Source of the DNA: an uncultured Ruminococcus sp.
Lineage (GTDB): Bacteria > Bacillota > Clostridia > Lachnospirales > Lachnospiraceae
Length of the DNA: 64,000 nt
Assembly: GCA_934359255.1 (NCBI GenBank)
Contig: CAKRLG010000004.1
Span: 1-64,000, forward strand
Direction of reading: 5' to 3'
Below the pieces are notes generated by a model, which saw only the letters and a list, made by a program, of their open reading frames with translations, was not told where the DNA came from and ran no database searches. Numbering within the stretch: position 1 is the first letter of the stretch; each line of letters begins with the position of its first letter. The translations under genes were made by a program, and so were the position numbers. Below are positions 3,486 to 63,758 of this stretch, piece by piece.

Positions 3486-3653
3486 AAAGCAAAGGCGCTA
3501 TGGAAAAACATCCGTAGTGCCTTTTGTCGTATCTAAGGAAATCGCACACTCTGTTTTCTTATGATACGACAGGGCTTGAAAAAAGCGAAACAACGGCGTT
3601 TTGCAGCTTCTTATATTATATATAGAAGCAAAGCGTCGTTGTTTCGCTTTTTT
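3486..3653 (+). promoter_or_regulatory. Hairpin-rich leader / attenuator upstream of amt
   Basis: Three consecutive hairpins lie between cotJC and amt. The first (about 3489-3526) pairs AAAGGCGCTATGG with CCGTAGTGCCTTT. The second (3526-3570) pairs GTCGTATC with GATACGAC and extends inward. The third (about 3577-3653) has a stem of some 35 bp with AAAAAAGCG at its base and ends in a T-run, so it reads as a strong terminator only 12 nt before the amt ribosome site. A terminator placed this way implies readthrough control by nitrogen status. Nitrogen genes in Clostridia are often controlled by ANTAR antiterminators, but I do not see two clear AnnGnn hexaloops. Confidence 0.6.
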
Positions 3654-3681
3654 CATTACAAAGAAAGAGGAGGACAAGAGT

Positions 3682-34564: not shown

Positions 34565-34590
34565 ATGTGTCCTCCTGTGTAGTAAAATGT

Positions 34591-34746
34591 GCTCTCGGAA
34601 TTTTTCTGCACTTACTTTTGTGGCTGATTTTCCGACAGTCGCACCCGAATTTCATCGATGTACGCACCGCGTGCGCCTCAGAAATTTGGGCACAACTGAC
34701 AAAAAATCATCACACAAAAGCAAGCACGGAAAAATTCCGAGAGTAC
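34591..34746. repeat. Large foldback (inverted-repeat) element
   Basis: The ends CTCTCGGAATTTTT (34593-) and AAAAATTCCGAGAG (-34743) are complementary. Pairing continues inward with mostly transition differences (GAATTTC/GAAATTT, CAGTCGCAC against GCACAACTG) to a GCAC/GTGC centre. The whole ~156 nt folds back on itself between the Nudix and LysR genes. It looks like a MITE or structured RNA. Confidence 0.6.
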
Positions 34747-34822
34747 CTTAAGTATAATTTTATATTTATAACACGACGAATGAAAACAGAAGTGTCTGCT
34801 GCTTATGCTATACATGAATATA

Positions 34823-37057: not shown

Positions 37058-37230
37058 TCTGGATTTTTCAGACACGCTCTAGAACATGCAAGGCAGAAAG
37101 CTGAGTCAGAAAACCGTACAGGTCGGCTCTTGCATCCTGTACAAAAAGCAGGTATACTCGTAAGTAACTGTGGCTGTGACCGGTGGGTAACAGCCGATGA
37201 CAGAATATGAAAATGACTGGAGAAGGTAGT

Positions 37231-38463
37231 ATGAACGAGAACAAATTAAGAGAATATGCGAAACTGATCGTAAAGATCGGAGCCAATGTACAAAAAGGAC
37301 AGCGCGTCCGTCTGCAGGCAGGTGTAGATCAGATTCCGCTGGTAAAGATGGTGACGGAAGAGTGTTACAAAGCAGGTGCAAGTTATGTGGAGATGTTCTG
37401 GGAGTGCGGAGAAATCAACAAACTGCATTATCAGTATGCGACAGTGGATGTACTCGGTGAAGTACCGGTATGGGAAGAGGAACGTGCAAAACAGATGACC
37501 GTGGATCTGCCGGTTCGTATCTTTATTGATTCTTCTGACCCGGATGAACTGGCAGGAATTTCCCCGGATCTGATCTCTGCCGTCAGCCAGATGCGCCAGA
37601 AGGTGATGAAAAAATATCGTGATCAGATCGATGGCAAACATCAGTGGCTGATCGTGGCAGCAGCTTCTGGAAAATGGGCGAAAAAAGTATTTCCGGATGA
37701 TACAGAAGATGTGGCTCTGGAGAAACTGTGGGATGCAATCTTTGAATGCGTATACCTGAAAGACGGTGAGGATGCGGAAAAGATCTGGCAGGCGCATAAT
37801 GAGCGGATGACACAGAAAGCCAACTGGTTAAACGAGCAGAACTTTAAGACACTGCATTATACCAGCAGTAACGGTACGGATTTTCGTGTGGATCTGATTC
37901 CGGGAGCAAAATGGGGCAGTGCAGGAGATATCAATCATCTGAATCATGCTTTCTTTGTTCCGAACATGCCGACGGAGGAAGTTTTCACAAGCCCGATGAA
38001 GGGAAAATGTGAAGGACGTCTGGTTTCTACCAAACCGTTAAGCCGTTCCGGACAGGTGATCAATCATTTTACGGTTGATTTTAAAGACGGAAGAGTGGTA
38101 GACTGCCACGCTGAGCAGGGGGAAGAAGTCCTGAAGAAAATGTTTGCGATGGATGAGGGTGCTTCCATGCTTGGTGAAGTGGCACTGGTTCCGAAGGAGT
38201 CTCCGATCAATCAGTCCGGTCTGATGTTCTATAATACTTTGTTTGATGAAAATGCTTGCTGTCATGTGGCTGCGGGACGTGGATTTTCTGAGGTTATTGA
38301 AGGGTTCATGGATATGACGGATGAGGAGATTTATGCAAAGGGAATTAATGATTCCATGATCCATATGGATTTTATGGTTGGATCGGATGATCTGCATATT
38401 GTGGGAATCCGGGAAGATGGTAGTGAAGTGGATATTTTTGTGGATGGGACCTGGGCTGAGTAG
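37231..38463 (+). CDS. M29-family aminopeptidase
   Basis: 410 residues. Family features are LREYAKLIVKIGANVQKGQ at the start, EVFTSPMKGKCEG, and FKDGRV with NQSGLMFYNTLFDENACCH supplying the metal ligands. M29 enzymes remove N-terminal residues from peptides using two metals. ATG 37231 follows TGGAGAAGG. No partner genes. A structured repeat begins 38 nt after its stop. Confidence 0.93.
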   Translation: MNENKLREYAKLIVKIGANVQKGQRVRLQAGVDQIPLVKMVTEECYKAGASYVEMFWECGEINKLHYQYATVDVLGEVPVWEEERAKQMTVDLPVRIFIDSSDPDELAGISPDLISAVSQMRQKVMKKYRDQIDGKHQWLIVAAASGKWAKKVFPDDTEDVALEKLWDAIFECVYLKDGEDAEKIWQAHNERMTQKANWLNEQNFKTLHYTSSNGTDFRVDLIPGAKWGSAGDINHLNHAFFVPNMPTEEVFTSPMKGKCEGRLVSTKPLSRSGQVINHFTVDFKDGRVVDCHAEQGEEVLKKMFAMDEGASMLGEVALVPKESPINQSGLMFYNTLFDENACCHVAAGRGFSEVIEGFMDMTDEEIYAKGINDSMIHMDFMVGSDDLHIVGIREDGSEVDIFVDGTWAE

Positions 38464-38499
38464 GCTGGGGGAACATGCCATATAGAAAAGGTGTTTAAG

Positions 38500-38693
38500 A
38501 CGGACGCCCGAAAACAGACCGCGCTGTCTGCGGCAACGTGGGCAGGGCAACTTTAAGCTAGCCGCTAACTTCGGCTATAGTTCACGAGGGTCGGCTGACC
38601 CTCGCGAAAGCCTGCGTAAGCGTCGGATCTTAAAGCTTGCCCTAAACGCCCACACAGTGTTGCCGCAGACAGCGCGGTCTGTTTTCAGGCTGG
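38500..38693 (+). repeat. Structured element with variable 30-nt inverted arms, copy A
   Basis: Layout: border ACGGACGC (38500-38507), 30-nt arm (38508-38537), 121-nt core (38538-38658), 30-nt arm complementary to the first in 29 of 30 positions (38659-38688, the exception being G-U), border GCTGG (38689-38693). The core closes with GTGGGC/GCCCAC, AGGGCAA/TTGCCCT and CTTTAAG/CTTAAAG. Inside are three short hairpins, including GAGGGTC/GACCCTC (38586-38603). The core matches copy B (63600-63720, opposite strand) at 117 of 121 positions; the arms do not match. Confidence 0.85.
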
Positions 38694-38765
38694 ATGCTGG
38701 CTGAGAATTTGAAAGATGAACGAGAGGATTTTGAACTTGGGACACGCCCAATATGAGAAAGTAGC

Positions 38766-38837
38766 GATTTACGTAGTAAATCAGAAAATTTCGAATATTG
38801 AGAGGATTGCGGGAGCAGCTAAGCTGCGGAGCAATCC
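38766..38837 (+). repeat. Hairpin cluster in the gap after element A
   Basis: No gene is visible in 38464-39027. Besides element A it holds a perfect GATTTAC/GTAAATC hairpin (38766-38782) and GGATTGC/GCAATCC with inner GCAGC/GCTGC (38804-38837). It may be another dispersed structured repeat; only one copy is in the window. Confidence 0.4.
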
Positions 38838-38914
38838 ATAGTATCAAAGGAATGTCAAAAGATCTTTTGATCCAAACATCATATTATATAAATGGAACAT
38901 AGTATTATATAGAT

Positions 38915-38951
38915 AAAACCGAGGGAGAAGAGGAATCTCAGCCTCGGTTTT
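38915..38951. terminator. Bidirectional terminator
   Basis: AAAACCGAGG pairs with CCTCGGTTTT, with an inner GAGA/TCTC. It can serve the glycerate kinase gene on the minus strand. Confidence 0.75.
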
Positions 38952-39027
38952 GCTGTATTGTATATTCATAATTGATCCGGTGGATTAAGTCAATTATGGA
39001 CATGGCTGGAATGTACAAGAGTGATAT

Positions 39028-40173
39028 TTAGTGTACCCGTACTGCCTGGATCAGGCGGAAGACCTGTTCGGTGGTGGTGAGCAGGTTTTGACGGGTGGTT
39101 TCGGGGATCATGGCTTCTTCCAGGGTGGTTATGGTCTGGAGGATGGGGAAGAAGGCGTCGATGCCGTGCTGGTTGCAGAGGCTGGCTTCCGGGGTGGTGC
39201 AGCCGGAGAAGGCAAGGACGGTTTTGTTGTATTTTTTGGCGATGGCGGCGACGCCGATGGGGGCTTTTCCCATGATGGTCTGGCCATCGAGGCGGCCTTC
39301 ACCGGTGATAACGATATCAGCATCTTTGATGTAGGATTCCAGTCGGGTTTCTTCCAGGATGATCTGGATGCCGGACTGGAGGATGGCATTTGTGTAAGAA
39401 AGAAAGGCGAAGCCAAGTCCTCCGGCGGCTCCGGTGCCTGGGTGGTCAGGGTCGGCATTCGGGTATTTTTCACGGGTGATGTTGGCATAGGTAGCAAGCC
39501 ATTGATCCATCTGGCAGATCATGTCCGGAGTGGCTCCTTTTTGCGGTCCGAAGATGGCGCTGCAGCCCTGGGGTCCGCAGAGTGGGTTGGTCACATCACA
39601 GGCAATTTTAAAGTGACATTCTTTCAATTCCGGTATGACATGTACATCTTCGATGGTCTCGATCAGGGACAGGCCTACAGCACCGAAGGGAACCGGCTGA
39701 CCGTTTTTGTCAAGAAATTCATATCCGAGAGCCTGAAGCATGCCAATGCCGCCGTCGTTTGTAGCGCTTCCACCGATTCCGACGATAAAGTTTCGGCAGT
39801 CGTTGGTGATGGCATCACGGATCAGTTCGCCCACGCCGTAAGTCGTTGTATGGAGTGGATTGCGGTCTGGTTCGTCTACCAGAGTGATTCCCGCAGCGGC
39901 GGACATTTCAATAATGGCGGTCTTTGAATCATCAAGGATTCCATAAGCTGCCTCTACAGGTGTACCCAGCGGACCGGTGACGGTCACTGTACGGATCCGG
40001 CCGTTCATGCCGAGGGTGAGAGCTTCCACCGTACCTTCTCCGCCGTCAGCCAGAGGGCGGACAAACACCTCTGCATCCGGGAAAACACGGTGGATCCCTT
40101 CACGGATGGCAGTTCCGGCGTTCAGAGAACTGATGCTTCCTTTAAATGAATCGATGGCGATTACTACTTTCAT
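39028..40173 (-). CDS. Glycerate kinase (GarK/GlxK family)
   Basis: 381 residues. Family marks: MKVVIAIDSFKGSISS at the start, PLADGGEGTVEAL, GVGELIRDAI, GGSATNDGGIGMLQALG and a late ITGEGRLDGQT. It phosphorylates D-glycerate, giving 2- or 3-phosphoglycerate depending on type. ATG 40173 follows AAAGGAGG on the minus strand. Immediately upstream is a remnant of a HAD phosphatase, so an ancestral two-gene unit is likely. Confidence 0.93.
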   Translation of the reverse strand: MKVVIAIDSFKGSISSLNAGTAIREGIHRVFPDAEVFVRPLADGGEGTVEALTLGMNGRIRTVTVTGPLGTPVEAAYGILDDSKTAIIEMSAAAGITLVDEPDRNPLHTTTYGVGELIRDAITNDCRNFIVGIGGSATNDGGIGMLQALGYEFLDKNGQPVPFGAVGLSLIETIEDVHVIPELKECHFKIACDVTNPLCGPQGCSAIFGPQKGATPDMICQMDQWLATYANITREKYPNADPDHPGTGAAGGLGFAFLSYTNAILQSGIQIILEETRLESYIKDADIVITGEGRLDGQTIMGKAPIGVAAIAKKYNKTVLAFSGCTTPEASLCNQHGIDAFFPILQTITTLEEAMIPETTRQNLLTTTEQVFRLIQAVRVH

Positions 40174-43183: not shown

Positions 43184-43231
43184 AACAATATGTGCAGAGA
43201 AAATAAAGATAGAGAAGATTTACAATAGAAA

Positions 43232-43305
43232 GATTCGTCGGCAAATCAGTTGAAAGGCTGAGACGCAAAGCTATAGGGTCTGTAAAATGACAGCCAGTTG
43301 CAACG
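43232..43305 (+). ncRNA. Cyclic di-GMP-I (GEMM-I) riboswitch
   Basis: The consensus is easy to follow: CGGCAAAtc, then GAAA tetraloop stem AGTTGAAAGGCT, GACGCAAAGCTATAGGGTCTG, and ACAGCCAGTTGCA. The tetraloop-receptor layout fits GEMM-I. The base equivalent to G20 is G, which favours cyclic di-GMP over cGAMP. An overlapping terminator follows (43311-43345), so ligand binding probably controls readthrough into the kinase at 43471. Confidence 0.9.
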
Positions 43306-46615: not shown

Positions 46616-46654
46616 AAAATTATTTTTTTTTACAAATTTTGGAAATCAGTAATA

Positions 46655-46727
46655 GAAATAATCGGCAAAACAGACGAAAGTCTGTGACGCAAAGCTACAG
46701 GGCCTGTAAAATGGCAGCCAGTTGCAT
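46655..46727 (+). ncRNA. Second cyclic di-GMP-I (GEMM-I) riboswitch
   Basis: Same plan as the first: CGGCAAAAC, a CAGAC-GAAA-GTCTG stem, GACGCAAAGCTACAGGGCCTG and GGCAGCCAGTTGCA. G is again present at the specificity position. It is followed by a clean terminator hairpin. The gene beyond it is decayed, so this copy may have lost its target. Confidence 0.9.
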
Positions 46728-46738
46728 GAAATAAGATG

Positions 46739-63564: not shown

Positions 63565-63758
63565 CCAGCAAGAGGAAGGCGGAGCCAGGGTGGCACGACA
63601 CTTTGTGGGCGGTTAGGGCAAGCTTTAAGATCCGACGCTTACGTAGGCTTTCGCGAGGGTCAGCTGACCCTCGTGAACTATAGCCGAAGTTAGCGGCTAG
63701 CTTAAAGTTGCCCTGCCCACGTCGTGCCACCCTGGCTCCGCCTTCCTCTTGCGTCCGT
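63565..63758 (-). repeat. Structured element with variable 30-nt inverted arms, copy B
   Basis: Inverted copy of the element at 38500-38693. On the minus strand: border ACGGACGC (63758-63751), 30-nt arm (63750-63721), core (63720-63600), complementary arm (63599-63570, 30 of 30 paired), border GCTGG (63569-63565). The total from GGACGC to GCTGG is 192 nt in both copies. The four core differences include one in a hairpin loop and one turning a G-U pair into A-U. The arms share only about 11 of 30 positions with copy A. 63500-63564 shows no other feature. Confidence 0.85.

Follow-up and report, generated by a model that had tools for sequence, protein, structure and literature searches.

The described systems closest in behaviour to the hairpin element analyzed here appear, judging from its sequence, to be the REP/BIME and MITE repeats, although no named family seems to fit it. 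REP/BIME repeats (GTAG/CGTC, RAYT-linked) are dispersed extragenic hairpins with a palindrome of 20-40 bp and frequent inverted pairs. According to PMC3733652, they are placed mostly between convergent or unidirectional genes, near the upstream gene's 3' end, and CGTC REPs are reported without a RAYT-type gene. A further point of comparison is template-switch (quasipalindrome) mutation, in which one side of a stem is rewritten from the other with multi-base compensatory changes. Template switching is reported both to create and to repair stems (PMC8794818; see also PMC8604942, PMC7202029), and its study as a mutational process has drawn on rRNA genes, yeast genes and reporters.

The window, by which we mean the whole stretch of 64,000 nucleotides analyzed, carries two copies of the element (Table 1). 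As in REP/BIME repeats, the hairpins are dispersed and extragenic, and inverted pairs of copies are frequent, with core starts about 230-510 bp apart. Their placement is also REP-like, near gene ends and rarely between divergent genes: among 90 elements with genes called on both sides, the neighbouring genes were convergent in 42 cases, co-directional in 45 and divergent in 3, as counted with a simple ORF caller and with orthologs unmerged. Unlike the REP palindrome, however, the element spans 192 nt with 73 (copy 1) and 74 (copy 2) base pairs, and it has long sequence-free arms and conserved internal loops. Its ends lack the GTAG tag, and GGACGC, read as GCGTCC on the opposite strand, puts CGTC at one foot of the hairpin. 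In contrast to RAYT-linked REPs, no RAYT gene was found beside the copies, and a link to Y1/RAYT transposases was not supported: the covariance model of the element tip finds a copy at only one of the 30 Y1 loci searched, which are part of the listed Y1 matches, and at a distance of about 1.3 kb. The element is like MITEs in being small, non-coding, multi-copy and present or absent between sister species, and inverted ends surround seven spans in one genome (G578). In the window type no conserved terminal inverted repeat was seen, the inverted parts of the element being its variable parts, and neither a parent element near the copies (within 1.5 kb, or in the G578 spans) nor a clear target duplication was found. 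In contrast to published template switching, the process here appears to act family-wide, shaping the arms of a repeat. Integron attC sites are recombination sites that are recognized in folded single-stranded form, whose stem sequence is free and whose core site motif is GTTRRRY; this motif is absent from both strands of both window copies and, unlike in attC, the conserved part of the element is internal rather than at the ends.

Results

Structure of the window copies and extent of the family

The preliminary description had reported two 192-nt copies with shared GGACGC and GCTGG borders, cores identical at 117 of 121 positions, and arms complementary at 29/30 and 30/30 positions within the copies but alike at only 11/30 between them. 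Re-reading of both loci confirmed the copies, their borders and their coordinates, and a recount gave four core differences in 121 and the same figures for the arms. With flanks included, the predicted folds reach -123.2 kcal/mol (z -12.3) for copy 1 and -133.6 kcal/mol (z -14.6) for copy 2, each copy forming one long hairpin whose energy is matched by none of 200 shuffles. Reading inwards, the border GGACGC gives way to the private stem and then to the inner arm end GCAAC/GTTGC; next come a lower stem, whose 3' bulges are conserved, and the tip, in which conserved internal loops are spaced by sequence-variable stems. Across the window, the tip model matches at the two copies only, each with an additional weak match on the opposite strand.

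Table 1. Window coordinates of the two hairpin copies, their parts and the gene preceding copy 1.
Feature	Position	Strand	Remarks
Hairpin element copy 1, GGACGC to GCTGG	38502..38693	+	192 nt; orthologs L031, L083
Copy 1 GGACGC border	38502-38507	+	
Copy 1 private 5' arm	38508..38537	+	30 nt
Copy 1 shared core	38538..38658	+	121 nt, 117/121 identical to copy 2
Copy 1 tip module	38542..38635	+	tip model 104.6 bits; conserved internal loops CTA/GGAT, TAA/TAA, TNC/TNC
Copy 1 private 3' arm	38659..38688	+	29/30 complementary to 5' arm
Copy 1 GCTGG border	38689-38693	+	
Hairpin element copy 2	63565..63756	-	192 nt; same-site copy L042 in G001
Copy 2 GGACGC border	63756-63751	-	
Copy 2 private 5' arm	63721..63750	-	30 nt
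Copy 2 shared core	63600..63720	-	121 nt
Copy 2 tip module	63623..63716	-	tip model 106.9 bits
Copy 2 private 3' arm	63570..63599	-	30/30 complementary to 5' arm
Copy 2 GCTGG border	63569-63565	-	
M29 metallopeptidase gene, upstream of copy 1	37207..38463	+	stop codon 38 nt before element, co-oriented

The search of related Lachnospiraceae proposed in the preliminary description places the window copies in a dispersed hairpin family of about 190 nt in the Lachnospiraceae, with dozens of copies both in Oliverpabstia intestinalis (G001) and in a congener (G002). The first relative came from a pattern scan of species genomes that returned two matches, one of them true (L002, O. intestinalis); the other, in Testudinibacter (L001), was rejected, there being no hairpin around its 18-nt match. 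An iterated profile over the fetched loci yielded 105 non-redundant matches (44 in G001, 35 in G002, 24 in G005 and 2 in the window), a figure that includes shortened and degenerate copies and for which weak profile matches were only partly fetched; in two other members of that genus-level group, G003 and G004, the profile found no match at E <= 0.001. With the tip covariance model at E <= 0.01, 21 of 299 sampled Lachnospiraceae genomes matched, G001 and G002 among them, and 17 of these 21 were judged to carry such hairpins from the folds and pairings of the matches listed, the same check of listed matches giving no confirmation for G113, G119, G228 and G281. An order-level sample of 392 genomes yielded matches in 5 at E <= 1e-5, of which three had been found in the earlier scans, and searches of phage and plasmid collections for the element and of viral contigs with two exact patterns returned no match. 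The preliminary description knew of no named family with this design; likewise, no such Lachnospiraceae repeat is described in the open-licence literature searched, and no Rfam family covers the window elements at its gathering score. Within the family, the border also occurs as GGACGA and GGACGG, and at the two G302 loci listed the apical stem, too, is long and is not the same in both. At one locus (L004, 642-1310), an element with the GGACGA border is present in three tandem copies that form a direct array with identical flanks.

Arm privacy and drift at orthologous sites

Arms were surveyed in 81 elements from the window, G001 and G002, of which 52, with type-A borders, were measurable; the other 29 were dropped for other borders, lost tips, contig ends or unmatched anchors. 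The condition that the preliminary description had named as refuting, other copies with unpaired or variable-length arms, was checked on these elements: the 5' arm is 28-33 nt long in 43 of the 52, and 12 of the 52 have arms free of mismatches. That complementarity is kept while sequence is free, as had been claimed from two copies, holds more widely: averaged over 38 orthogroups, arm identity was 0.51 (maximum 0.84), compared with 0.47 for shuffled arms, and the median core identity across the same orthogroups was 0.83. Arm identity was uncorrelated with core identity (r 0.08), and the 41 pairs with core identity of at least 0.93 had a mean arm identity of 0.54. Arms were also private among 14 copies in G031 filtered for at least 11 perfect pairs (mean identity 0.46, maximum 0.65). 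The privacy is general but has exceptions, since three copies in G578 are nearly identical in their arms and the arms in G005 are much alike. Arm subfamilies exist as well, such as copy 1 and L045 with an arm identity of 0.84, so that some arms are related by descent.

About two dozen sites are common to G001 and G002. In the 13 measurable pairs the same arms are kept, with an arm identity of 93.3% versus 92.9% for the flanks, and the same arms are found at orthologous copies across three genomes. The same-site copy of window copy 2 in G001 (L042) has identical arms except for one base and has its tip deleted; for copy 1, the upstream gene had no DNA-level match in G003-G005. Arms thus belong to the site, and they drift roughly at the pace of their surroundings yet in a co-ordinated manner. 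Among 402 orthologous arm columns there were 12 matched double changes (7 transversions and 5 transitions), 1 imperfect double change and 19 single changes, when about 0.4 matched doubles would be expected for independent arms. Because one locus with two elements (L005/L059) supplies 9 of the 12, the independent double-change events are few.

Pairing of arms and tips without wobble

In an RNA stem G-U is a tolerated half-way state and A-C is not, and a plain count of GU versus AC mismatches tells RNA-level from DNA-level pairing. The distinct arm defects pooled over the 52 elements comprise 19 GU, 18 AC and 18 transversion mismatches together with 42 indel columns, the latter partly a product of how the arms were cut, and are therefore without wobble bias; 31 elements from other genomes gave 6 GU, 8 AC and 16 transversion mismatches. 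The alignment of 40 tips contains 916 Watson-Crick cells, 4 GU, 11 AC and 27 other cells, counted with one loop column excluded and with the other cells probably being in part misaligned apical variants. As a control, a small set of 13 c-di-GMP-I riboswitches from G001, G002, G005, G031 and the window gave 159 Watson-Crick, 29 GU, 2 AC and 5 other cells. The GU share is thus 0.4% in tips versus 15% in riboswitches, and the difference from the riboswitches is significant for both arms and tips (Fisher test, P = 1.3e-4 and P = 6e-6, respectively). Covariation in the tip is nevertheless strong, with changes on both sides in 21 of 25 tip pairs, and the near-absence of wobble despite this covariation points to pairing of arms and tips being held at the DNA level. 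A G-U step likewise fails to explain 7 of the 12 matched double changes in the arms, because these are transversions. Covariation is often taken as proof of a functional RNA; here, in the virtual absence of wobble, it is better explained at the DNA level.

Rewriting of one side and exchange of cores

Copying of a strand into an arm, one of the options raised in the preliminary description, is apparent as foldback within existing elements, as opposed to a rule of insertion, at two pairs of orthologous copies (L015/L085 and L011/L073). In L085 (G002) the normal 3' side of the core is gone and is replaced by the complement of the element's own 5' side, with foldback from CGGCTA onto TAGCCG (a 6-nt match) and two arm mismatches left; its G001 counterpart, L015, is full-length and lies on the other strand. 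In L073 (G002) the 3' side of the tip has been overwritten by 20 nt exactly complementary to its 5' side, and the ortholog L011 retains the family loops. As far as can be read from the sequences, the changes in L085 and L073 both fit intrastrand template switching.

The cores follow a different course. In L024 (G001), the left flank and one half of the element are those of L082, and the right half is that of L074; in G002, L082 and L074 lie 5.3 kb from each other. The arms of L024 are unmatched, and the element is best read as the product of recombination through the cores. In 5 of the 13 G001-G002 pairs, both cores are nearer to a paralog than to each other. Copy 1 of the window is the clearest case of a core swap with arms retained: its flanks and arms match L031 and L083, whereas its profile-defined core is 99% identical to L043 (G002) and only 75-76% identical to those orthologs.

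Genomic placement, gain and loss

The upstream gene is co-oriented with the element in 44 of 65 groups and not co-oriented in the remaining 21, and in 35 of the 44 co-oriented groups the distance from its stop codon to the element is 11-54 nt. The preliminary description had also suggested a comparison with empty sites, and such sites were found: five G001 sites were sought in G002, of which four were alignable (L006, L009, L007 and L016), and all four were without the element. At L016, unrelated DNA takes the place of the element in G002. At L009 and L007 the difference between the genomes also spans more than 100 nt of the 3' flank, so that the borders of the window-type mobile unit are not fixed. 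L006 is the one of the four sites at which presence and absence could be polarised by an outgroup, and the element is absent there from G004 as well, which favours insertion; G003 and G005 carry other genes at this site. At L006 and L007 the 5' break comes after a T run. The fifth site sought, L010, has another repeat as its right (3') flank (query 590-716), which is about 100-130 bp long and is matched more than 30 times in G002.

In G578, three copies have their arms and part of their flanks in common, and inverted ends AAATTGCGGTTTGTCGG flank seven spans of 79-1040 bp; the two such spans that were folded (884 and 942 bp) contain two cores each, in opposite orientation. Inspection of the seven spans by eye for a target-site duplication revealed none of fixed length, AATT being indistinguishable from the ends. 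A 6.5-kb span between two ends in the same genome was rejected as an autonomous element, as it seems, by eye, to hold host genes.

Proteins encoded within 1.5 kb of the elements were compared at 81 independent places, and no transposase-like cluster was seen by eye. Twelve protein clusters recur at 3 or more of the 81 places and comprise, by eye, ORFs over the element itself, an ABC transporter, a response regulator, trp genes and others. A recurrent neighbour protein was rejected as a candidate, since many of the 15 largest of 65 clusters represent the same site twice or orthologs. Different hairpin types occupy similar flanks in G005 (L062, L096) and in G001 and G002 (L004, L092), which suggests persistent sites or hot spots in these distant congeners. 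L015/L085 and L115 lie near trp-like genes (G001, G002 and G065), and these elements possibly share another common site.

Discussion

Read most economically, the family consists of REP/MITE-like DNA hairpin repeats that are likely to be mobile. More specifically, we consider it reasonably probable, though well short of certain, that the element is a non-autonomous mobile DNA hairpin whose arms are kept paired through foldback template switching during replication and whose core is homogenised by recombination between copies. The element DNA would fold into a hairpin or cruciform inside the cell, and a putative protein would read the conserved borders and internal loops, so that any pairing stem sequence would suffice; the mobility enzyme, the hairpin in the cell and the recognition of loops are all postulated. 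Foldback of the nascent strand would copy a mutation in one arm into the other, and the stem would therefore drift yet remain paired, its sequence being free because pairing matters rather than sequence and because foldback copying preserves pairing. Cores would go on exchanging between copies, while arms would remain private because those of different copies are too divergent to recombine. The arms would accordingly be old lineages of each site, neither freshly made nor target-encoding. Against this scheme, wobble-free pairing would equally result if there were nothing but strong selection for a DNA hairpin, and the conserved asymmetric bulges of the core need a keeper, be it selection or exchange, against foldback rewriting.

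A broader proposal, which we put forward tentatively and regard as doubtful, is that of a class of mobile elements read by shape, in which a putative machine would recognize the loop pattern of the folded strand, the stems would be rewritten by their own foldback and heredity would be structural. If true, every copy of such an element would receive a perfectly paired stem with a private sequence of its own. For RNA and palindromes alike, it is an open question of evolution how long stems can remain paired under sequence drift. With dozens of naturally replicated copies to a genome and orthologous ones in sister species, the family allows arm rewriting, core exchange and insertion to be compared, and it would be a natural test of the self-rewriting of palindromes if one arm is copied from the other at the DNA level.

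Another possibility is that the element is a MITE or REP of the ordinary kind, with arms kept paired, without template switching, by selection alone for a DNA cruciform that its transposase requires. Such selection would account for the wobble-free, DNA-level pairing in arms and tips, and it agrees with the dispersal of the family, the inverted ends in G578 and a position near gene ends like that given for REPs in PMC3733652. We nonetheless consider it unlikely as the sole cause, because the arms change at the flank rate, a pace that should be lower under strong purifying selection on pairing, and because L073 and L085 differ over whole stretches, seemingly in one step.

The preliminary description had offered a structured RNA as one of its two options, and a 3'-UTR element or small RNA whose long, sequence-free stem is selected for RNA pairing would indeed explain the conserved internal loops and the heavy covariation of the tip. 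The arms of copy 1 contain four terminator-like patterns, compared with 0.5 expected, and these patterns, together with the prevailing co-orientation of the upstream gene and the short distance from its stop codon, would suit an RNA role too. The option is weakened, and to our judgement quite improbable, given the practical absence of G-U pairs: GU is no commoner than AC in the arms, the GU share of the tips is a small fraction of that in riboswitches, and transversions make up most of the matched double changes. In addition, no promoter-like site was found in 38300-39100, and Rfam has no match over the element.

The other option, that insertion copies adjoining host DNA into inverted arms, must be set against a few suggestive traces of such copying. 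Pairing continued past the borders scores higher within elements than in cross-pairs (16.3 versus 13.1, with 8 of 38 at rank p <= 0.05), and at L006 new DNA on the 3' side of the element mirrors the host bases AAGAGTTT, which the empty site also contains. Four tests compared each of 52 arms with the 200-nt flanks of its own element; nine arms attained a rank p <= 0.02, each in a single test, and inspection by eye found the likeness convincing in just two groups (L017/L076 and L059:1235), as echoes of the arm in the 5' flank. Arm-flank likeness is therefore not general; moreover, arms are conserved at orthologous sites and related copies in G578 carry their arms along, all of which makes this mode of insertion highly improbable. 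Finally, two chance palindromes flanking a common repeat, a reading for which nothing speaks beyond the two window copies taken alone, can be given practically no credence, being refuted by the finding of paired arms in dozens of copies from several genomes.

Neighbouring features of the window

A Clostridiales-1 RNA (RF01699) matches at 38692-38846, beginning on the final bases of copy 1, and the first 50 nt of the flank carrying it are similar in L031 and L083. A tie between the element and this RNA was rejected, as 20 other element loci are without such a match. The one further Rfam match around copy 1 at E <= 10 is mir-5928, at 16.5 bits and far under its cut-off. Two c-di-GMP-I riboswitches (RF01051) lie at 43230-43305 and 46654-46729. 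Another long inverted repeat, with 37-nt arms that are 84% complementary and a 90-nt spacer, is located at 34586-34749; it is not matched by the tip model, directly follows a stop codon and faces a convergent LysR-type gene. A further inverted repeat, at 3577-3655, has 39-nt arms separated by 1 nt and 82% complementary.
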